Source of the DNA: Chloroflexota bacterium
GTDB taxonomy: Bacteria > Chloroflexota > Dehalococcoidia > Lucifugimonadales > Lucifugimonadaceae
Reading direction: 5' to 3'
Length of the DNA: 64,000 bases
NCBI GenBank assembly: GCA_002730555.1
Contig: PCAM01000006.1
Span: 62,001 to 126,000 of the forward strand
Below are positions 5,960-40,873 of the stretch, piece by piece. The translations under genes and the position numbers were made by a program. The first letter of the stretch is position 1. Every line of letters starts with the position of its first letter. A model generated the notes under the pieces. That model searched no databases. It had not been told where the DNA came from and saw only the letters and a program-made list of their open reading frames with translations.

Positions 5960-6450
5960 CACCGCCGTCACACAGACCAGCTTTGCGCCGTCCATGCAGT
6001 AACCGGGAGTGTGCCAGCGCGTCTCAAGCGGTTGAAGGTTGCCGGAATCGTCGGCGGCACGGGCCACGACCGTGTAGTGGCCCTCGGACGACGGTGTCCA
6101 ATCCACGTCCTCTGCTACCACGGATACTCAAACGCACTCTCGTCGAGATGGGCGCCCTGCCAGGTATCTCGCCGTCCAGGCTCACGTCGACGCGGCGCAC
6201 GGATTGCCGGGGATTCCGGGTCCCAGGTCAGACCGGATGTTACCGGCGCACTCCAGCATGGCGGGAAGGGGTTTTATGGGGGCGCCGGGTCGAATACGGC
6301 GCCGTCGATGGAGAGCGACCAGTCCGCGATGTCGATATCCGGCACGGTGTAGTAGTCACGGATGTAGAAGAGCAGGGTGGGTGTGAGCCAGCTACGCAGG
6401 GCGGCGGGCGGGGTTTCCCCGACGACGCGTTGTCTATCGGGGCCAGTTGT
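5960..6450 (-). pseudogene. Decayed sulfite-oxidase-family molybdopterin enzyme (N- and C-terminal fragments, frameshifted, core deleted)
   Basis: N-term fragment ALRSWLTPTLLFYIRDYYTVPDIDIADWSLSIDGAVFDP; then in another frame MLECAGNIRSD (CAGN motif, about 6239-6259); VRRVDVSLDGE then DTWQGAHLDESAFEYPW in a different frame (about 6119-6169); then PSSEGHYTVVARAADDSGNLQPLETRWHTPGY (Mo-co dimerisation domain). Confidence 0.75.
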
Positions 6451-6630
6451 GCTGCGCCTGACCGGGTACAGGCGGGGTCGTCGGTGACCGTGATCAACCC
6501 GGCATCGGTACAAGTACAGAACGGCATAGCGGTATGCCCGGAAGTCCACCCGCTGCGTCGAGTGATGGCGGAGACGCTACATGCAACTATCCGGTTAACG
6601 GACTGGGAAACGGGCGGTGCGATGGCCGCG

Positions 6631-9326: not shown

Positions 9327-9647
9327 TCACGCCCCGGCCTCAACTCCGGTGAAGTGCGGTATAACTTCGGTGGAGAACTGTTCTAGCTGTTCGAGTATCA
9401 CCGATTGAGGCGTGCCAATAACGGCGCCCGCGTTGACGAACTCCGGACCCGGGTAAAGGTCCTGGAGCGGCATCAGCTTCTCCACGATCAGTTCCTCGTT
9501 GGGGAACAAGCGGTTGTTGGCCGCGATGCCCCCGAATCCGATGTTATTGAAATCGATGTGCCCGGCGTAGAGCGTTCCGAACTCCTTGATCATGTGTTGC
9601 AACTCTCCTGAGCGGGCGTGCATAGAGGGATCGCACGCCTTCGCCAC
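9327..9647 (-). pseudogene. C-terminal stub of a luciferase-like (LLM) flavin-dependent oxidoreductase
   Basis: 106 aa with LLM-type C-terminus (NAGAVIGTPQSVILEQLEQFSTEVIPHF). GTG start is immediately preceded by an in-frame TGA, with no N-terminal barrel upstream. Confidence 0.6.
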
Positions 9648-13382: not shown

Positions 13383-13669
13383 GCCTGTCCCTTAATTCTG
13401 TCCTGATGCTGGTAGGGGTGCGTGGGAACGCCGTCTGAGATGTCCTATTCTCGCGATCCCCCACTCGTGCCGGGCCGCGTTATTACGATCTGTGGACCAT
13501 TTCATTCCGGGTATACGTGAGTTAGCACTCAACGGACTGTGAGAATCCCCGACCCCCTCAATGGGCCGCGGCACTAGGGTTCTAGTAGGGAATCTCACGA
13601 CGCCAGCTTGGCGACAGTAAATTGCGTCTCTCGTCGAGACAACACCTGCGACGAACCCCGGAGGATTGA

Positions 13670-13843
13670 ATGCGTCGGGAACGGGGACATCACGGCGGCG
13701 ACGCCAGTCAAGTGAGCGGCGAGGGCGTTTATTTCACGGCGATCGGACGCGTAGCGACATCCGGTTTGGATCACCTTGGGGACGAGGACCGTGATCCAGC
13801 TATCCCCCTGGACACGTTAGTTCGAGAGCCGTATCTGCGCTAA
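13670..13843 (+). CDS. Candidate 57-aa small protein
   Basis: ATG at 13670 preceded by GGAGG (CCCGGAGGATTGAATG); MRRERGHHGGDASQVSGEGVYFTAIGRVATSGLDHLGDEDRDPAIPLDTLVREPYLR. Not in the ORF track because it is under 60 aa. Confidence 0.3.
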   Translation: MRRERGHHGGDASQVSGEGVYFTAIGRVATSGLDHLGDEDRDPAIPLDTLVREPYLR

Positions 13844-15201
13844 TCGGGCATCCGTCGCTGCGCCACATCGGGTGCACCAAACTCATCGAGCCACCGTTTT
13901 TCGACAGTTGCGCGCCACTCCTCGGCAAGATATTTCAACTCAGCGGTGACTTCAGGCTCGGAGTCGGCGAGGTTTCGAGATTCTGAAGGGTCCGAATCAA
14001 GATCAGCCAGATGGACGGCGGCTACCGGACTTTCATGCTCCACCAACCGCCCCTCCAGCACAAGCTTCCACTTGCCCCGTCGGACCGCTGTTTGTTCTCC
14101 CCATTCCCAGAAAATCGTGCGTTCCGGCGTCTCGGCCTTATCCGCCAATAGCGTCATCAGGCTCGTTCCATCGATCTCATGTGCACTTGAATCGACACCG
14201 GCGGCTTCCAGGATCGTCGGCACGATGTCCATCGCCACGCCTGGTTGATCTGTCACCACACCACCATCTACACGCTCCGGCCAACGGATAATCCCCGGGA
14301 GCCGTATCCCGCCCTCGTAAAGGCTGCCTTTGTGGCCCTTCAACCGACCAACCGTACCGCCGTAATACGGATCAAGGGTGCCATCGAGCCAATTTCGGGA
14401 CTCGCGTGACGGGCCGTTGTCGGACATGAATACCGACATCGTGTTGTCGCCGACGCCTAGACGGTCGACTTCGTTCAAGATCTTTCCGATCGCGTCGTCC
14501 ACCGAACTGATCATTGCCGCCATCATCTGTCGATCCCACGGCAGATCCGGAAAACGGTCCACGTACTCCTCGGGCGCATGCATCGGGTAGTGCGGAGCAT
14601 TGAAAGGAACATAGAGCAGGAACGGATTGCCGGACGCGTGCATTTTTCGCATGTACTCGATGGCTTTGTCCGTAATCAGTTCCGTGAAGTATTCGCCGTT
14701 ATGCCACACTTCCTCGTCGTTCTCCCAGAGATCATGGGTCGGGTTCGGACTGGGTGGTTGATTGGCGCTGTAGAAAAAGATGTGTGAGTAGTAATCGATG
14801 GTTCCGGCAAGGAAGCCGAACGAGTCGTTAAATCCGTGGTGCGAAGGACGCGCGTGCTCGGTCAGCCCCAGGTGCCATTTCCCGGCCATAGCGGTCTCGT
14901 ATCCGGCCGAACCGAGCATCGTGGCGATAGTCGTCGCCGATTGCCGCAATCCGGCGGTCTCACGCCCACCGCGCAAGACTCCGCGAATACCCGCGTTCCC
15001 CGGATAACGGCCTGTCAGCAGCGCCGCCCGGGATGGGCTGCAGACGGGGGAATTCGAGTACCAGTCGGTGAACCTCACGCCCTCTGCGGCCATTCGGTCC
15101 AGGTTCGGAGTACGGAAATCGGTCGCGCCCATGCACGAAAGGTCACCGTACCCCTGGTCGTCTGTCAGGAAGATGAGGAAGTTAGGTCGGCCGTCGAGCA
15201 T
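13840..15201 (-). CDS. Sulfatase (arylsulfatase family, type I formylglycine motif)
   Basis: NFLIFLTDDQGYGDLSCMG; VCSPSRAALLTGRYPGNAG (CxPxR). Confidence 0.93.
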   Translation of the reverse strand: MLDGRPNFLIFLTDDQGYGDLSCMGATDFRTPNLDRMAAEGVRFTDWYSNSPVCSPSRAALLTGRYPGNAGIRGVLRGGRETAGLRQSATTIATMLGSAGYETAMAGKWHLGLTEHARPSHHGFNDSFGFLAGTIDYYSHIFFYSANQPPSPNPTHDLWENDEEVWHNGEYFTELITDKAIEYMRKMHASGNPFLLYVPFNAPHYPMHAPEEYVDRFPDLPWDRQMMAAMISSVDDAIGKILNEVDRLGVGDNTMSVFMSDNGPSRESRNWLDGTLDPYYGGTVGRLKGHKGSLYEGGIRLPGIIRWPERVDGGVVTDQPGVAMDIVPTILEAAGVDSSAHEIDGTSLMTLLADKAETPERTIFWEWGEQTAVRRGKWKLVLEGRLVEHESPVAAVHLADLDSDPSESRNLADSEPEVTAELKYLAEEWRATVEKRWLDEFGAPDVAQRRMPD

Positions 15202-15256
15202 TCGGTGGAGCCTTGTAGTTGGTTGTTAGATGCCAGATACGCGTGAGGACCCGGGT

Positions 15257-16663
15257 TCAAACCATCCGGTACGTACGAACTTCCTCACCCCTCACGGCGT
15301 ACTCATCCGACCAGCGCCTTTCAATCGCGGCTCGCCACTCTTCAGCCAGTTGCTTCAGCTCGGTGGTGATCGCCGGTTCCTTGTCGACTAGATTGATCGC
15401 CTCGGCGGGATCTGTCTCAAGGTCGGAAAGATGGATTTCGGCGATCGAATCCTCGTGCTCCACGAGCTGCCCGTTTAGCACCAGCTTCCATTTCCCGCGT
15501 CGGACGGCCGTTTGATCGCCGATCTCCCAGAAGAGTGATCGATCGTCCAGTTTCGCCCGCTGCGTTACGTGTCCCAGAAGACTGGTCCCATCGATCTCGT
15601 ACTGCCTAACGTCGATCTCCGCGGCGTCCAGTACTGTCGGGACAACGTCCATCGAGGCGACCGGCGTGTCGGAGACGACGCCTTTCGCTATGTGACCAGG
15701 CCAGTTCAAGATTCCCGGGAGCCGGATTCCGCCTTCAAACAGGCTGTATTTGTGACCTTTGAATTGGCCGGATGTACCGCCGTAGTACGGATCGAGCGTT
15801 CCGTCCAGCCAGTTCCGTGACTCCCGAGAAGGGCCGTTGTCTGAGGTGAATACGGAAAGCGTGTCTTCGGACAGACCAAGCCGGTCGACCTCGTTCATGA
15901 TCTTGCCGATAGAGTCGTCCACGGCGCTGATCATCGCCGCCATCACCTGACGATCCCATGGCAGATGATCGAACATCTCCATGTATTCGCGAGGGGCGTG
16001 CATCGGGTAGTGCGGTGCGTTGAACGGCACGTACAGGAAGAAGGGCTGGTCTTTTGCCGCCATATCACGCATGTACTCGACCGCTTTCTCTGCGATCAGT
16101 TTCGTGAAATATCGGCCGTTTATCCACACCTCGTTGTCGTCCTCCCAGAGATCGTGTGTGGCGTTCTGACCTGGACCACCCTGATTAGCCCCGTAGTAGA
16201 AGATGTGCGAGTAGTAATCGATACACCCGGCGAAGAAACCAAACGAATGGTCGAAGCCGTGGGCTTGCGGGCGCGATTCCTCGGTGAGCCCGAGATGCCA
16301 CTTTCCAGAAAGGGCGGTGTGGTAACCCGCGTCACGCAGCATGGTGGCAAGCGTGGGGGTCGACTGTGGAAGCCCGGCCGTCGAGCGGTGACCGCGGAGG
16401 ATCTCACGAATTCCCGCATTGCCAGGGTACCGACCTGAAAGCAGGGCAGCGCGTGAAGGGCTGCACACCGGGCTGTTCGAGTACCAGTCCGTGAATCTGA
16501 ACCCGTCATTGGCTAGACGGTCCAAGTTTGGCGTCCGGAAGTCGGTCGCTCCCATACACGAAAGATCGCCGTAACCCTGATCATCGGTCAAGAATACGAT
16601 GACGTTGGGTCGTGAGTCGGGCATGTGTGGGCCTAAGTAATGGTGTGCGCCTGGCTGGATCAA
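15257..16663 (-). CDS. Sulfatase, tandem paralog of 13840-15201
   Basis: NVIVFLTDDQGYGDLSCMG; VCSPSRAALLSGRYPGNAG; near-collinear with its neighbour over the full length. Confidence 0.93.
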   Translation of the reverse strand: MIQPGAHHYLGPHMPDSRPNVIVFLTDDQGYGDLSCMGATDFRTPNLDRLANDGFRFTDWYSNSPVCSPSRAALLSGRYPGNAGIREILRGHRSTAGLPQSTPTLATMLRDAGYHTALSGKWHLGLTEESRPQAHGFDHSFGFFAGCIDYYSHIFYYGANQGGPGQNATHDLWEDDNEVWINGRYFTKLIAEKAVEYMRDMAAKDQPFFLYVPFNAPHYPMHAPREYMEMFDHLPWDRQVMAAMISAVDDSIGKIMNEVDRLGLSEDTLSVFTSDNGPSRESRNWLDGTLDPYYGGTSGQFKGHKYSLFEGGIRLPGILNWPGHIAKGVVSDTPVASMDVVPTVLDAAEIDVRQYEIDGTSLLGHVTQRAKLDDRSLFWEIGDQTAVRRGKWKLVLNGQLVEHEDSIAEIHLSDLETDPAEAINLVDKEPAITTELKQLAEEWRAAIERRWSDEYAVRGEEVRTYRMV

Positions 16664-16745
16664 GAGGCTGCCACAGACTACATGAACGGCTCACGTTTTT
16701 GGCGGGAGACCTTCAACCGCTAGTCGGACCTGAATCCGCAGGCGC

Positions 16746-17220
16746 TCACGCCTGCGTACGTGGTCGGTACTGGAGCGCCTCTGCCAGGTGGCTCCGTCAT
16801 GATCTGTTCTGACCCCGCAAGGTCCGCCACGGGGCGGGCAACTTCGAGTACGCGGTGGAAACTACGAGCCGACAGTGGGAGTTGGATCATCGCCATCTGG
16901 AGGAGCGAACGCGCTGCTTCCTCCACCTGGCAATCGTTCCACACCTCTACTGGCCCCATTTCGCCGTTGGCGACGATCCCGGAGCCGTCGAAACGGGCGC
17001 GTTGCACTTCGCGGGCCGTTTCCACCCGCTGCCGTACGTCTTCCGAACCAGCCGCGGACGGTGGTCCCGTCAGCTTCTCGTACTCAACCCTCGGGACGTC
17101 CACAAATAGGTCAATACGGTCCAGCATTGGCCCGGAAATGCGCCGCTGATACCGGGCCACGGAACTCGTCGAACAACCGCACTCTCGATCCGTGTCGCCA
17201 AAATAACCACAGGGACCTTG
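16746..17220 (-). pseudogene. C-terminal fragment of YifB/ComM-family Mg-chelatase-like AAA ATPase, frameshifted near its 3' end
   Basis: Frame reads QGPCGYFGDTDRECGCSTSSVARYQRRISGPMLDRIDLFVDVPRVEY...SFHRVLEVARPVADLAGSEQI; the expected end HLAEALQYRPRTQA* (stop at 16746) is in a different frame, implying a 1-nt insertion near 16790. The N-terminal half is absent. Confidence 0.8.
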
Positions 17221-17224
17221 GTGC

Positions 17225-17324
17225 GGGCGTACACGATCGCATCGTGCAGCGCCAGCGCGTGGAACATGAACGCGTCGTCGGCATCGGGACTGTGACCGAT
17301 TGAAAGGGGCCTCTGATCTGCCAT
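17225..17324 (-). pseudogene. mqnD: N-terminal stub of MqnD-like (1,4-dihydroxy-6-naphthoate synthase family) protein
   Basis: MADQRPLSIGHSPDADDAFMFHALAL resembles MqnD N-termini; the frame then runs into yifB sequence. Confidence 0.6.
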
Positions 17325-17546
17325 TTGGTCGGGTTGCCTCTTCTCGGCGCGCCTCGATTGATTGTGGGAAGTGGGGTCGGGTTGATTAACCGGATACCAC
17401 GGTCAGCGAGGCCGAACTGGATCCGTCCGACAGGTGACCGTTGAAAACTTCAAGGATGTCGCACTCGGCGGTTGGCTGGGCCAGCGCTAACCTTCCGGCG
17501 GATGGTCGATAGCAATGTCTTCCTCATTCTCCGGACGATGCGGCGG

Positions 17547-18329
17547 CTACAGGAGCGGGCGCAACTCCGGCAATCGGTCGTAATAGGTACGGAAAAGCGC
17601 CAGGGCTTCCCGTTCACGCGGTCCCATCCGGTAGATGAACTGGTCCAAGTAAGAGCGAGCCTCTTCTGGGGGCATGTCGGCGCTCGGCCAGCCCTCCGCA
17701 ATGATCGCCTCTACATCCGCCAGCCCACTATCTAGGCTTTCGCCCAGCGAACGCCCAAAAGTCGCCAGCAGCGCGGGCTCCGTGTCCGCCCGTGCCAACC
17801 AGTGGGCGTAGACGAAGGGCAGCCCCGTCATCGCGTTCCAGACCTCGCCGAGATCGTGGACAAATGGGTAATCGTCTATTCCACTACGGTTGCGCAACGC
17901 TTCGTCACCGATCAACAAGATGGCGTCGTGCGGTTCTTCCCGCGTCACGAGGGCGTCCGGTTCGACTCCCCAGTTCTCTCTGAATAGGACACGCATGAGC
18001 TGGACGGTGGTCGCCGTTTGCTCCGTCACGGCGATCCGTGCGCCCTCCATCTCTTCCGGCATGCGGGCGCTGAACAGGAGGATGCTCACCGACGCCTGTT
18101 TTGTCGCTACGCAGAAATCGCCGATCGACGTCAGCGCATCACCCATACGGAACCACTCGGCTACCGGCAGCGGTCCGGCGTCCAGGTCGCCGTGTTCCAC
18201 GGCCAGCGCCATCTGGCGCGGCAGGTACTCCGTGAGTTCCACAGCACCCGGATCCATGCGCTCGTAAAAAACGGTCGAGTTCAGGTACGGCAATAGCCCG
18301 ACTCTGAGTTTTCCGGGTTGGTTGGCCAT
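17547..18329 (-). CDS. mqnA: Chorismate dehydratase MqnA (menaquinone biosynthesis)
   Basis: 260 aa; LRVGLLPYLNSTVFY, LDAGPLPVAEWFRMGDAL, IGDEALRN, DLGEVWNAMTGLPFVYAHWLAR. Confidence 0.88.
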   Translation of the reverse strand: MANQPGKLRVGLLPYLNSTVFYERMDPGAVELTEYLPRQMALAVEHGDLDAGPLPVAEWFRMGDALTSIGDFCVATKQASVSILLFSARMPEEMEGARIAVTEQTATTVQLMRVLFRENWGVEPDALVTREEPHDAILLIGDEALRNRSGIDDYPFVHDLGEVWNAMTGLPFVYAHWLARADTEPALLATFGRSLGESLDSGLADVEAIIAEGWPSADMPPEEARSYLDQFIYRMGPREREALALFRTYYDRLPELRPLL

Positions 18330-18967
18330 CAGGCGTACACCTTCGAATCGTTGTACACGGCGTTTCGCTCGACCGGAATACGACCGATGGTTTTGATCAA
18401 GCGCGCCATACGCTCCCGGGCCAGACCGGCCGGGGAGTCTGCCTGCGCGACGTGGGCGATGCGCTCTTTGCCGATCGTGCCGTCTATGTCGTCGGCCCCG
18501 AAGGGCAATGCAAGGGCGGCTGTGGCCTCACCGAGCATTACCCAGTACGACTTGATGTGCGGAACGTTGTCCAGCATCAGGCGGGCCACAGCGATCATCT
18601 TGAGATCGTCCGTCGGCGGCGTGGGGTGGGGGACCAGCATGGTGCTGCCGACCTGGTATCCAAGCGGGATGAACGCCCAGAGGCCCCCGGTATGGTCCTG
18701 TATCTCCCGCAGCCGGACCAGGTGATCGACTCGCTCCTCCATCGTCTCGATGTGGCCGTACAGGATGGTGGCCTCGGACTTGATGCCCATAGCGTGCGCC
18801 ATGCGGTGGATCTGCACCCAACGATTTGCGTTCGCTTTTCCGGGCAGCAGTTCCCGGTGCACGCGCTCGGAAAACACCTCAGCACCGCCCCCGGGCATAG
18901 ACTGCAGGTTGGCTTCTTTGAGGCGGGCGAGCGACTCTTCGGGCTCGATCTTCCAACGTCTGTAATA
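18329..18967 (-). pseudogene. mqnE: Aminofutalosine synthase MqnE, C-terminal half only (radical-SAM N-terminus missing)
   Basis: Open frame begins after TGA (18968-18970): YYRRWKIEPEESLARLKEANLQSMPGGGAEVFSERVHRELLPGKANANRWVQIHRMAHAMGIKSEATILYGHIETMEERVDHL; the CX3CX2C half would lie where ubiD ends (19002). Confidence 0.78.
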
Positions 18968-19001
18968 TCACTTGGATCAGCTCTCATTCTCTGGTTCTTA
19001 T

Positions 19002-20780
19002 TCAACTGAAGTACTCGCCCCACCGGCGATCGACCTGCTGGATCACGTCCGGATCCATCTCAAGCGGTCGCGGGTAGGAGGATTTGAGGGATGCGTCGAT
19101 GCCCATGGTTCCCGAGTACGCCGGGACTGGTCCGCGCAGTTCAGCACCCGTGAAAACGATGTCCTGCGCCGGGTCGAACCGGGTGAAAAGGCCCCAGAGG
19201 AGTGAGATGTCGTCGTCGATATCGATGTCCGGCGACACCACGGCGATCAGCTTGACCTTCGACAGCAGCGGAGAGGCAACCAGTGCCTCAAGCACTCGGC
19301 GCGGTTCGTTCTCCACCTGAACCACCAGCAACGTCTGCTCGAAGAAGCGTGACCGCATCACACCCGGCGCTAGCGCGGGCAGATCGCCCGGCAACGGAAC
19401 CGCCATGTCGGATGCAGGTCCCCGGCCGGTGGCATCGATGATCAGCTTGCCGCCTGCATGTGGAGCGCTCTGTCCGGCCGCCCCACCCGCGAAGTCCAGC
19501 GTGTCGACCGGCCCCCGGGCGATGATCTGCGCATCCCGCCGCACGTCAAAATTACGCCGGATGGCCTGCACGACCCTGGTGAAGCTGCGGACGTTGACAT
19601 CCGGGTCCACGAGGACGATCACTTTCGTCAGGGCAAGCTGGCCGGTCCCAAGCAGCCCGAGCGCCGTCTTGAGTGGCTCCCGTTCGTATCGCGTCTCCAC
19701 GGAGACGACCAGGAGATTGTGGAACCCCGCCTCGAAGTAGGCCCACAGATCGGTCAATTCCGGATGGATCAACCTGGAAAGCGGCTTCAACACCTCCTGG
19801 GTCGCGTCGCCGATGAACTTGTCTTCCTGCGGCGGTTTTCCGACAACGGTCGCCGGGTACACGGCGTTGCGCCTGCGTGTAATCGTTTTGACCTGGAAGA
19901 TCGGGAACTCTGCGGCCTCCGAGTAGTGCCCGAAATGGTCGCCAAAGGGGCCTTCAACGCGCCGCACGTTGGGAGGTACAACGCCCTCCAGCACGAATTC
20001 GGCCTGTGCCGGCACCTGCATGCTCAGGGTCATGGCCTGTGTCATCGGAGTCCTCGCATTGCGCAGGAACCCGGCGAACGCGGCCTCGTCAAAACCTTCC
20101 GGGAGAGCGGCCACGGTGGCGAGCCAGAGCGCCGGGTCGCCGCCGATCGCGACCGCCATCTCAAGCGGTCGTCCGCTCCTCTCCGCCTGCCAGTGGTGGA
20201 CGCCGCCACCCCGTTGAATCTGGATGTGCATGCCGGTCGTCTGGCCGTCGTAAACGTGCATTCGGTACATGCCGATGTTGCGGATGCCGGTCTCCTGATC
20301 GACGGTGTGCACCAGCGGGAGTGTCACAAACCTACCGCCATCGCCGGGCCAGCACTTGAGAATCGGCATGGTGCCGAGGTCCGGGTCCGACTCCACAACT
20401 TCCTGCACCGGCGCTTTCCGTGATCTGCCCGGCCGAAAATTCATGAAGCGCTTCGCTATGCTGCGGTTGCGCCAGATCGTTTTGAACGACGGCGGGTTCA
20501 TGTCCTGGATGAAGTGCAGGAGTCGCTCGCCCAGTTCCTCCGGCTCACCGCCGAGCGCCATCTGGATGCGCCGCCTTGAGGCAAGGACGTTGATGGCGAC
20601 CGGGTAGGCCGAGCCTTCCACGTTCTCGAACAGGAGGGCCGGACCGCCCTCAAGCACGGACCGGGTCGCGATCTCGGTGATCTCCAGTTCCGGGCTGACC
20701 AGAGCCGAAACACGATGCAGTTCACCATTTTTTTCCAGGTAAGCCAGGAACGACTGTAGGTCGGTAAATGCCATCGTCAA
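19002..20780 (-). CDS. UbiD family decarboxylase (menaquinone-cluster type)
   Basis: 592 aa; GPALLFENVEGSAYPVAINVLASRRRI, IGMYRMHVYDGQTTGMHIQIQRGGGVHH, EGPFGDHFGHYS. Confidence 0.9.
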   Translation of the reverse strand: MTMAFTDLQSFLAYLEKNGELHRVSALVSPELEITEIATRSVLEGGPALLFENVEGSAYPVAINVLASRRRIQMALGGEPEELGERLLHFIQDMNPPSFKTIWRNRSIAKRFMNFRPGRSRKAPVQEVVESDPDLGTMPILKCWPGDGGRFVTLPLVHTVDQETGIRNIGMYRMHVYDGQTTGMHIQIQRGGGVHHWQAERSGRPLEMAVAIGGDPALWLATVAALPEGFDEAAFAGFLRNARTPMTQAMTLSMQVPAQAEFVLEGVVPPNVRRVEGPFGDHFGHYSEAAEFPIFQVKTITRRRNAVYPATVVGKPPQEDKFIGDATQEVLKPLSRLIHPELTDLWAYFEAGFHNLLVVSVETRYEREPLKTALGLLGTGQLALTKVIVLVDPDVNVRSFTRVVQAIRRNFDVRRDAQIIARGPVDTLDFAGGAAGQSAPHAGGKLIIDATGRGPASDMAVPLPGDLPALAPGVMRSRFFEQTLLVVQVENEPRRVLEALVASPLLSKVKLIAVVSPDIDIDDDISLLWGLFTRFDPAQDIVFTGAELRGPVPAYSGTMGIDASLKSSYPRPLEMDPDVIQQVDRRWGEYFS

Positions 20781-21391
20781 TCATCACTCCCCTGCCAACG
20801 GCGCAGCAGTGTTGATTCGACGCCCAGCGTGTCCAGCACCCGCCCGGCGATCATGTCTACGAGGTCGCCGACGCTCTCCGGCCGGTGGTAGAAGCCGGGC
20901 ATGGCGGGCAGCACTATCGCACCGGCCTCCGTGACGGCGGTCATGTTGCGGAGGTGGATCAGGTTCAAGGGCGTTTCACGCGGCACCAGGATCAGCTTGC
21001 GCCGCTCTTTCAGCATCACGTCCGCCGCACGCTCAAGCAGGTTGGACGACACGCCGTTGGCGATGCGCGCCAGTGTCCCCATCGAACACGGCAGCACCAC
21101 CATCCCGGCGGAATCGTAAGACCCGCTGGCGATAGTTGCTGCGATGTTCCGTTGATCGAACAGCTCCAGCGAGCCGGCGCCCGAACCAGGGTCCAGTCGT
21201 TCCATCAGCGTCCGGGTATCGGTTTCTGGGTCGCCGGTGAGGTGGATACCCAGCTCGATCTCGAATACGCGGCGGCCGGCGTCCGTGATCACCACCCTGG
21301 CGTCGTGCCCGGCGTCTACAAGGCCTTCGATAACCCGGCGCGTGTAAGGAGCACCGCTCCCGCCGGAAATTCCGACAACGTAATTTGCCAT
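20777..21391 (-). CDS. UbiX family flavin prenyltransferase
   Basis: 204 aa; VVGISGGSGAPYTRRVIEGL, GSYDSAGMVVLPCSMGTLARIANG, LILVPRETPLNLIHLRNM. Confidence 0.93.
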   Translation of the reverse strand: MANYVVGISGGSGAPYTRRVIEGLVDAGHDARVVITDAGRRVFEIELGIHLTGDPETDTRTLMERLDPGSGAGSLELFDQRNIAATIASGSYDSAGMVVLPCSMGTLARIANGVSSNLLERAADVMLKERRKLILVPRETPLNLIHLRNMTAVTEAGAIVLPAMPGFYHRPESVGDLVDMIAGRVLDTLGVESTLLRRWQGSDD

Positions 21392-22275
21392 CAGGTCAGT
21401 GTCCCGGCGATCACGAAGCCTGCGAATACGACGGCGATGATGCCGTTCATGAGGAAAAACGCGGCGCCCAGTTGTGACAAGTCGGTCGGTGAAATAAGCC
21501 GCTGTTCGTACGTCAGCAGCGCCGCCACGGCCCCGACACCGGCGAAATAGAGCATGTGGGCGTCAAGCAGTGTCCCGGCAAACGCCAGGCTGGCGACGGT
21601 CACGACGTGGAACGAGCGGGATATCCAGAGGGCGGACTTGATGCCGAAACGTGCCGGGATCGAATTCAAGCCCTGCTGACGGTCGATCTCGCTGTCCGCG
21701 ATGGCGTAGATGATGTCGAACCCGGCGACCCAAAACATTGCTCCGATCCCGAGCCAAGTGACGCCCCAGTTGAGGTCGCCGGTCATGGCGACCCAGGTGG
21801 CGGGCGGGATGATGACGTAGACGGCGCCGAGGGCCAGGTGCGCGAGCCAGGTGAAGCGCTTCGTGTACGGGTACAGGACCAGCACGGCGATCACGATGGG
21901 GCTCAGGTACCAGGCCAGACGGTCGAGCTGGGACACCGCCAGCAGAAACGCCATCAATGCCACGCTCATGTAGACCCACACCTGCTTCGAGGTGATCAGC
22001 CCCGCCGGAATGGCGCGGGTGGCCGTGCGCGGGTTGCGTGCGTCTATCTCCGCATCGATGACCCTGTTGGCGCCCATGCCGAAGGTCCGCGCGCCCACCA
22101 TCGCAACGGCCAGCCAGAGGAGCGGCTGCCAGTCCGGGACTCCGTCGGCGACCAGGAACACAGTGGCCGCTGCGAACGGCAGGGCGAACACCGAGTGCTC
22201 AAACTTGATCGTTTCCAGGAAAAGCCGGATTCGTCCCAATGCGGTGGATGATGTCTGCGGAGTCGCGCTAGCCAT
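21391..22275 (-). CDS. UbiA-like prenyltransferase
   Basis: 294 aa, about 8 TM; GANRVIDAEIDARNPRT (NxxxDxxxD) and YAIADSEIDRQQGLNS (second aspartate motif). Confidence 0.92.
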   Translation of the reverse strand: MASATPQTSSTALGRIRLFLETIKFEHSVFALPFAAATVFLVADGVPDWQPLLWLAVAMVGARTFGMGANRVIDAEIDARNPRTATRAIPAGLITSKQVWVYMSVALMAFLLAVSQLDRLAWYLSPIVIAVLVLYPYTKRFTWLAHLALGAVYVIIPPATWVAMTGDLNWGVTWLGIGAMFWVAGFDIIYAIADSEIDRQQGLNSIPARFGIKSALWISRSFHVVTVASLAFAGTLLDAHMLYFAGVGAVAALLTYEQRLISPTDLSQLGAAFFLMNGIIAVVFAGFVIAGTLT

Positions 22276-22888
22276 CTATATCCTCCCTGATCGCCTCAGA
22301 ACCGGAACCGGGACGTTCCAGTCCGCCGACCAGAACCCATCGAAGCACCGGCAGCGCCTCGGCGGGGGTTGGCGTTCCGCTGTACACCCAGTTCACGACG
22401 ATCTCGTTGACGGCGCCGAGCCAGGCGCGTGCCACTACTTCCGTGTTTGTGGGTTTGATCTCCCTGGCCTCAACCGCTCTATCGAGCTCGCCCCGGATCA
22501 CGCTTGCGAACTGGCCGAATATTTCGACCCGTTTTTTCTCGAACGCTAAGCCCATCGAATAGCCCTGCACGAGAAGCACTTTGGCGAGCCCCCGGCGGCG
22601 GCCCAGCCGGGTAAGCACCTCGGACAGCGCTGCGTCTGCGCCGGCGAGCGGGGAGTCGCAAGCGTCTGCGGCCTCTTTCGCCCTGCGTGTGAGGTGGTCG
22701 GCCAGTCGATCGATAACGGCAAAGAACAAGTCTTCTTTGCTCGGAAAGTGGAAGTAAAAACCGCCCTTGGACAGGGGCGTTCGGCCAGCTATGTCGTCGA
22801 CCAACGTCTCGTGATACCCCGTCTCGCCAAATGCGTCTTCGGCGGCTTCAAGGATGCGTTCACGGGTCGTTTCACGCTGGACGGCCAT
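22268..22888 (-). CDS. TetR/AcrR family transcriptional regulator
   Basis: RERILEAAEDAFGETGYHETLVDDIAGRTPLSKGGFYFHFPSKEDLFFAVI (TetR HTH). Confidence 0.93.
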   Translation of the reverse strand: MAVQRETTRERILEAAEDAFGETGYHETLVDDIAGRTPLSKGGFYFHFPSKEDLFFAVIDRLADHLTRRAKEAADACDSPLAGADAALSEVLTRLGRRRGLAKVLLVQGYSMGLAFEKKRVEIFGQFASVIRGELDRAVEAREIKPTNTEVVARAWLGAVNEIVVNWVYSGTPTPAEALPVLRWVLVGGLERPGSGSEAIREDIDG

Positions 22889-32433: not shown

Positions 32434-33459
32434 ATGGGCCTGTACAGCACACTCGCAAGACCGTTGCTCTTCCGATTCCCGCCGGAAACGGCGCACGGGT
32501 TCGGTGATTTCGCACTTCGCATTTCCCCCCTCTGGTCGGTGCTGCGGCCGATGCTATCGGCCCGGGATCAACGACTTGAGACCACCGTCGCCAGCATCAA
32601 GTTTCCCAACCCAGTTGGTGTCGCCGCAGGCCTGGACAAGGACTGCCGCTTTCTGTCGGGACTTCTGGACATCGGGTTCGGGTTCGCCACCGGCGGGACG
32701 GTGACGCGGGACGCACGGCCGGGAAACGCTCAGCCGCGTGTGGTCCGAGAGCCCGGGCAGCGGGCGCTCCTCAACGCCTTGGGTTTCCCCGGCGAGGGAC
32801 TGGACGCCGCCGAATCACGGCTTCGTGGGCTATCCGAGCGGAGACGGTCTCAGATCATGGTAAGCATCTCCGGGACCGGGGTGGCGGACATCGCCGAGTG
32901 CCATCGACGCCTCCAACCGCTCGTGACCGGCATCGAGGTGAACGTGTCCAGCCCGAATACCGTCGGTTTGCGCACCTTCCACCAGCCGGAAAATCTGGAG
33001 CGGCTGGTGTCGGCGCTGGTCGCCCAGCGAGATCGGCCGCTCTTTGTGAAGCTGCCGTCGTGGCGCTCAGATGAGGAGCGGGACGAGATGATGCCGATGG
33101 CGCAGACATCGTTGGACGCCGGAGCGGACGGGCTGGTTGTTGCGAATACGCATCCGGTTGTGGACGATCGGCTGGCCGTCGGGCGCGGCGGTTTCTCAGG
33201 AGCGCCGATCCTCGACGATACGGTGCGGATGGTTGCCGATGCGCGGGGTGAGATGGGGAATAATTTTGGACTGATCGCGTGCGGAGGTGTTGGTACGGCC
33301 GATCAGGTCTGGCGACTGATGGAGGCAGGGGCGTCAGCGGTCCAGCTTTACACGTCCTTCATCTACGAGGGTCCAGGGTTGCCGGGGCGTATCAATCGGG
33401 ATCTGGTGGAACGGATGGATGTTGATGGCGTGAGCGGTCTGCCGGGGGTCGGTGGGTAA
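32434..33459 (+). CDS. pyrD: Quinone-dependent dihydroorotate dehydrogenase (class 2)
   Basis: MGLYSTLARPLLFRFPPETAHGFG; FPNPVGVAAGLDKDCRFLSGLLDIGFGFATGGTVTRDARPGN; EVNVSSPNT. Confidence 0.93.
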   Translation: MGLYSTLARPLLFRFPPETAHGFGDFALRISPLWSVLRPMLSARDQRLETTVASIKFPNPVGVAAGLDKDCRFLSGLLDIGFGFATGGTVTRDARPGNAQPRVVREPGQRALLNALGFPGEGLDAAESRLRGLSERRRSQIMVSISGTGVADIAECHRRLQPLVTGIEVNVSSPNTVGLRTFHQPENLERLVSALVAQRDRPLFVKLPSWRSDEERDEMMPMAQTSLDAGADGLVVANTHPVVDDRLAVGRGGFSGAPILDDTVRMVADARGEMGNNFGLIACGGVGTADQVWRLMEAGASAVQLYTSFIYEGPGLPGRINRDLVERMDVDGVSGLPGVGG

Positions 33460-40301: not shown

Positions 40302-40704
40302 CTGACCAACAAATCACACCGGGTCGCCGACCTGACGCTGAATTACGGCGAGCCCGGTAGCGGCGATCCGCTTTTCTCCTGCGTGTTTTCTCCGGGAGCT
40401 GGCGCTCGTGGTCACAGGAGATCGATCTATTGGCCCACCGATGGCGTGTGATCGCTCTCAGTTCACGCGGTTCGCGCCGCGTACTGGACCAGCGAAGAGT
40501 TTCAGGGCCAGGCGTCGTAACGCGGCCCGCAAAATGTTAATGAACCTCGCGTTCGAGACACCCGGTATCGAGCGGGTCGAGATCTCGGCGGCAGCAGAAA
40601 ACGAACGAAGCAGGCGTCTTGTTGAACGGCCGGGCTTCCGCCTGGAAGGCATTCTTCAGAATGAACTGAAACGCAGGGAGGTTCTGCATGGTCGCGCCGT
40701 GTAG
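40302..40704 (+). pseudogene. Composite scar: alpha/beta-hydrolase N-terminal remnant joined to GNAT C-terminal remnant
   Basis: Frame 1 TNKSHRVADLTLNYGEPGSGDPL; shifted frame WRSWSQEIDLLAHRWRVIALSSRGS; then LMNLAFETPGIERVEISAAAENERSRRLVERPGFRLEGILQNE (GNAT C-terminus). Confidence 0.68.
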
Positions 40705-40873
40705 TCCATGCTCCGAAACGAATGGACCGCATCCTGAGTGACGTCCGGTACGTCATCCCAGAATCCTCATATGGAAACGGCCTTCGGCGGCTTGATTTCG
40801 CCCGGCTGCCGGGCCATCCTGCGTTCCGTCGGTGACAACGGTTCTCGGCCACATGCAGAAAGCAGGAAATCCC

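Follow-up and report, generated by a model that had tools for sequence, protein, structure and literature searches.

Repeated loss of mqnE, mqnC and mqnD from the futalosine operon of SAR202 bacteria suggests auxotrophy for a menaquinone precursor

In the futalosine (MqnA-E) pathway, the products of mqnE, mqnC and mqnD convert the product of MqnA into 1,4-dihydroxy-6-naphthoate, and prenylation by UbiA/MqnP and decarboxylation by UbiD and UbiX (MqnL and MqnM) act after this intermediate. A prediction of the last steps of the pathway has been published (PMC4746308). Partial quinone pathways have been described for the Men route. Streptococcus agalactiae has only menA, lacks the men genes that act before it, and uses DHNA to complete DMK (PMC6030563). 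Among gut bacteria, incomplete Men pathways typically retain the late steps, and an exchange of precursors has been proposed (PMC4746308); feeding with DHNA or MK-4 was demonstrated for some gut strains (PMC4746308; PMC5738691). Finally, a 2026 survey reported that in many Chloroflexota no quinone pathway is recognisable, and that MK routes were often switched (PMC13386864). The exchange of quinones or of their precursors, in the literature examined, concerns gut and host bacteria and the Men route, and none of the literature searched was found to describe a partial futalosine pathway for SAR202.

We analysed a stretch of 64,000 nucleotides, hereafter the window, from a SAR202 (Dehalococcoidia) MAG called G000 (2.57 Mb, 41 contigs, 91.7% complete), whose assignment to SAR202 follows from the named relatives of its UbiD. 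Beyond the window, the genome was covered by searches and by chosen stretches. It was compared to congeners G001 to G007, to the family f1 (G000 to G036), and to relatives of the same order, including G037 to G059. The futalosine operon of G000 is broken in three genes, mqnE, mqnC and mqnD, by internal deletions. Its organisation, gene order and late genes are those of the congeners, and the remnants are orthologues of MqnE, MqnC and MqnD; what sets G000 apart from the known pathway is that these three proteins are non-functional. Like S. agalactiae, it has lost the genes for the head group and kept prenylation, and presumably also the respiratory use of a quinone. It differs in that the route concerned is the futalosine one, in a marine Chloroflexota, that the decarboxylation genes are kept as well, that decay is still visible, and that the uptake is a presumed one. 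The absence of early steps and the presence of late ones recall the gut bacteria, but those cases belong to the Men route, whereas in G000 the pseudogenes still stand at the locus and the loss was repeated within one genus. With the switches between Men and futalosine routes (PMC13386864), G000 has in common the loss of the futalosine pathway, which genus g7 of the same family also underwent, with MenD; in G000, however, the loss comes without a detected replacement, MenD being below cut-off.

On the minus strand, the order in G000 is tetR-ubiA-ubiX-ubiD-mqnE remnant-mqnA-mqnC remnant-mqnD remnant-ComM remnant (Table 1). The late futalosine module (MqnP/L/M), made of UbiA, UbiD and UbiX, is intact and held in one operon. 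An earlier note, made from the letters of the window, had read these three genes and mqnA as intact, and the profile matches bear this out.

Table 1. Features of the futalosine locus and of the quinone-dependent enzyme in the window.
Feature	Coordinates	Strand	Basis
tetR-type regulator, operon head, intact	22268..22888	-	ORF; syntenic orthologues in congeners
ubiA (MqnP-type prenyltransferase), intact	21391..22275	-	TIGR01475, 291.5 bits vs 180.8 cut-off
ubiX (flavin prenyltransferase, MqnM), intact	20777..21391	-	TIGR00421, over cut-off
ubiD (MqnL, menaquinone biosynthesis decarboxylase), intact	19002..20780	-	TIGR03701, 511 bits vs 495.9
mqnE pseudogene	18329..18971	-	start region joined at ~18950-18956 to C-terminal half
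mqnA (chorismate dehydratase), intact	17547..18329	-	PF02621, 156.7 bits, 1-250/252; alignment
mqnC pseudogene	17386..17527	-	alignment with G002, G003, G006
mqnD pseudogene	17218..17324	-	tblastn, residues 1-25 at 17324-17250; junction
ComM/YifB C-terminal remnant, fused to mqnD stub	16720..17217	-	TIGR00368, positions 349-489 of 499
PyrD, class 2 quinone-dependent dihydroorotate dehydrogenase	32434..33459	+	TIGR01036, 209.7 bits vs 200

Compared to the congeners, mqnE of G000 keeps its start region, from the GTG at 18971 onward, and its last ~205 codons; the ~464 bp between them, a length obtained by arithmetic from the congener alignment, are gone, and the frame is shifted. What remains matches the TIGR03700 model at positions ~146-350 only, with 261 bits for a cut-off of 434.55, and the radical-SAM CxxxCxxC motif, present in 65/65 other aligned sequences, is deleted. 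The truncation reported in the earlier note is thus real as to the CxxxCxxC region, but the front end of the gene is not missing: the lesion is an internal deletion of ~0.46 kb with a frameshift. In mqnE of G004, both ends of the segment lost from G000 carry CGCTGGAAG, so that short direct repeats probably mediated the deletion. The second lesion is in mqnC, where ~1.0 kb is lost and the ~16 codons of the start run directly into the ~28 codons of the end; residues 370-400 match 17481-17389 by tblastn, and the sole match to TIGR03699 in the whole genome is the MqnE remnant. As for mqnD, the stub had been correctly recognised before, and consists of the 25 first codons followed by ~11 later ones (HDAIVYAR), with ~0.53 kb lost and the 3' end missing. 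The open reading frame at 16720-17160, which forms the low end of the range given in the earlier note, is not MqnD, and corresponds to the C-terminus of ComM/YifB. This piece scores 116.6 bits for a cut-off of 362.4, over ~140 model residues; it is the only ComM match in the G000 genome, meaning that the ComM/YifB gene is broken too. Homology at the three deletion junctions does not exceed ~10 bp. With MqnE, MqnC and MqnD non-functional, the pathway would stop after MqnA. The break claimed in the earlier note therefore holds, but it affects three genes rather than two, the gutted mqnC having gone unmentioned.

Complete colinear operons were found within a single contig in congeners G002 and G006, while in G003, G004 and G005 all operon genes are present, spread over contig breaks. 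In G001, parts of mqnE and mqnC lie at contig ends, mqnD is intact, and no mqnA was found in the sampled sequence. Siblings with full mqnE and mqnD, which the earlier note had counted as speaking against its reading, do exist, but they represent the ancestral state, and the loss in G000 stands. A second decayed operon was found in G007. Its mqnE has a deletion of ~0.87 kb with ends that differ from those in G000, its mqnC carries a TAG nonsense codon and a Cys-to-Gly change of the first CxxxCxxC cysteine, and mqnD is absent; mqnA, ubiA and ubiX are intact, and ubiD is open over its sampled part. The tree places G007 beside G002 and G006, both of them intact, with 100% bootstrap and apart from G000. 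A loss inherited by both from a common ancestor is ruled out by this tree and by the differing deletion ends. Given that the lesions differ and that the nearest relatives of G007 are intact, the two losses were independent, and the case for a convergent loss of mqnE, mqnC and mqnD is solid. In both species mqnA and ubiA/X/D were kept.

Omega values were obtained with a branch model of GY94 type written for this analysis. For the mqnE remnant, omega was 0.074 on the G000 branch, versus 0.023 elsewhere (2dlnL 8.28). Of 85 family-conserved sites, 8 are altered in the remnant, although the first of these coincides with the junction and could be due to the alignment; intact congeners differ at 4-5 of 128 such sites, counted along the whole protein. 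Judging from these substitutions, it is under relaxed selection. Violations of conserved sites amounted to 0/47 in ubiA and 0/40 in ubiX of G000, and ubiD had no more of them than the congeners. The fraction of the G000 branch evolving neutrally was best estimated at ~0.05-0.055 for mqnE (interval about 0.01-0.14), and at ~0.02 for ubiA, ubiX and ubiD together, with a range of 0 to ~0.04 that overlaps the mqnE interval; a fraction of 0.055 was rejected for the three genes (2dlnL 7.7). The substitution patterns thus point firmly to constraint on ubiA/X/D in the G000 lineage. They also place the loss as recent, about 5% of the branch, and the intactness of ubiA/X/D may partly reflect a lack of time. 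For mqnA, anything from 0 to ~0.15 fits, so that its retention is indistinguishable from passive delay; it nevertheless survived in both species, an outcome not especially predicted by simple decay. On the G007 branch omega was raised in mqnA and ubiA, and also in the control gene mutL, for which reason this branch was dropped as a test of constraint.

Among the three outcomes offered in the earlier note, intact copies elsewhere in the genome were not found: in this 91.7%-complete MAG, the profiles PF02621, TIGR03700 and TIGR03699 revealed no second MqnA, MqnC, MqnD or MqnE, the one genome-wide match to PF02621 being MqnA, and no MenD passed its cut-off. The best TIGR00173 match reached 77.4 bits for a required 244.2, a score passed by 4 of 60 relatives. 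A switch of G000 to the Men pathway was discarded on this ground, even though genus g7 shows that such a switch can occur. The TIGR03664 profile (MqnB/MTAN) is not decisive in this group, as its matches are below cut-off in G000 and in the intact congeners alike. All these whole-genome negatives apply to the assembled part of G000, ~8% of the genome being missing. On the other hand, a quinone is presumably still needed, as the earlier note had proposed, since G000 has two complex I NuoH genes and the class 2 PyrD of the window, which the note had also pointed out, passes its profile.

Some observations on quinone genes extend to the relatives. No UbiE/MenG over cut-off was found in G000 or elsewhere among the listed members of family f1, in contrast to the other families of the order, almost all of which have one; members of f1 may make demethylmenaquinone, or use another methylase. 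In genus g7 (G013, G023, G032), the futalosine genes are absent and MenD is present, which represents a switch of menaquinone pathway within the family. Many families of the order (G037 to G059, for instance at loci L149 and L150) have complex I, UbiA and UbiE, with neither MqnA nor MenD over cut-off; at L149 and L150, ubiD, ubiA and ubiX sit together. A CinA/cytidylyltransferase gene found beside ubiD-ubiA-ubiX in other families was considered as a marker of an alternative route, and rejected because f1 has it too, in most cases as two separate genes.

The explanation that we favour, with a probability of about 0.55, is a recent auxotrophy for the head group, in which an imported precursor is finished by the MqnP/L/M enzymes that were kept, the same state having been reached independently in G007. 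Three internal deletions removed mqnE, mqnC and mqnD, which would put an end to the production of 1,4-dihydroxy-6-naphthoate. The cell would then import this compound, or a soluble precursor close to it, as released by its neighbours, and would itself prenylate it with UbiA/MqnP and decarboxylate it with UbiD and UbiX. MqnA would be a leftover first step that has probably yet to decay. Scavenging, one of the three options of the earlier note, seems the best of those remaining. A narrower version, in which the two SAR202 species are independently auxotrophic for 1,4-dihydroxy-6-naphthoate itself, and MqnA may even owe its retention to a continuing use of its product, is put forward more tentatively, at somewhat less than even odds; it would imply an ocean pool of soluble menaquinone precursor that is shared.

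The decay might instead concern the whole operon, with finished menaquinone taken up, or little respiration taking place, and ubiA/X/D and mqnA simply not decayed yet. The recency of the loss (neutral branch fraction about 0.05), the best estimate of 0.02 rather than 0 for ubiA/X/D, and the higher omega that ubiA and mqnA have in G007 go in this direction. Yet these three late genes are cleaner than expected from a joint relaxation with mqnE (2dlnL 7.7), show no extra violations at conserved sites, and were spared in two independent losses, which makes this explanation unlikely, although it deserves to be kept in mind. Rather improbable as well is a hidden replacement that would feed UbiA/X/D, whether by intact copies of the mqn genes or by a head-group route that escaped recognition, lying in the missing ~8% of the MAG or carried out by diverged enzymes. 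It would have had to arise independently in two species; moreover, the mqn locus is single-copy in the congeners, MenD is below cut-off in G000, and UbiE is so in the whole family. The incomplete state of the MAG (91.7%) and the MenD switch of sister genus g7 speak for it, as do the many relatives in the order with complex I and UbiA and without MqnA or MenD, among which a quinone route yet to be assigned may exist.

The intact mqnA of both decayed operons, flanked in each by deletions on either side, could also be taken to mean that 3-[(1-carboxyvinyl)oxy]benzoate, which MqnA makes, has acquired a new use, and that the enzyme, perhaps along with UbiA/X/D, was retained for this purpose. However, its constraint is equally well accounted for by passive delay (0 to ~0.15 fits in G000, and omega is raised in G007), and no partner enzyme is known, so that we consider such a repurposing highly improbable. 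An assembly or consensus artefact, masking a population with an intact operon, might be suspected from the contigs of some congeners that break within mqnE or mqnC. Against this stand the relaxed selection and conserved-site changes of the mqnE remnant, the three separate lesions with at most ~10 bp of homology at their junctions, and the independent MAG G007, where the same genes decay by substitutions and deletions. In five other 20 kb stretches of G000, furthermore, ORFs of G002 were matched over their full length in 46 cases and partially in 4, meaning that internal deletions are not a genome-wide noise. An artefact is very unlikely by this evidence.

In this uncultured marine clade, the futalosine route has thus been taken apart on two occasions, each time at the same point, and the enzymes that finish the molecule were retained. 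Under the favoured reading of a head-group auxotrophy, free naphthoate precursor would be predicted in seawater, and a growth factor would be named for the culture of these bacteria. The presence of mqnA in a genome would, moreover, be no proof of menaquinone synthesis from scratch.

Other parts of the window contain further traces of gene turnover. Two tandem sulfatase genes (about 13400-16700) separate the mqnD/ComM remnants from the gene at which synteny resumes, and no counterpart of them aligned at the same place in the congeners examined. At 9351-9593, in the manner of the mqn lesions, codons 1-36 of a luciferase-like (LLM) monooxygenase are joined in frame to codons ~326-384 of 388, with ~0.9 kb lost; the gene is full-length in G002, G005 and G001. 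A molybdopterin-binding oxidoreductase (sulfite-oxidase-like) at 5960-6527 is reduced to a remnant by an internal deletion and frameshifts, and is mostly lost in G005 too. Finally, at 40302-40731 a deletion, as judged against G004, has joined remnants of an alpha/beta hydrolase and of the next gene, a GNAT acetyltransferase. With such remnants present both in this window and in G005, it is normal in this genus for lost genes to leave stubs behind.
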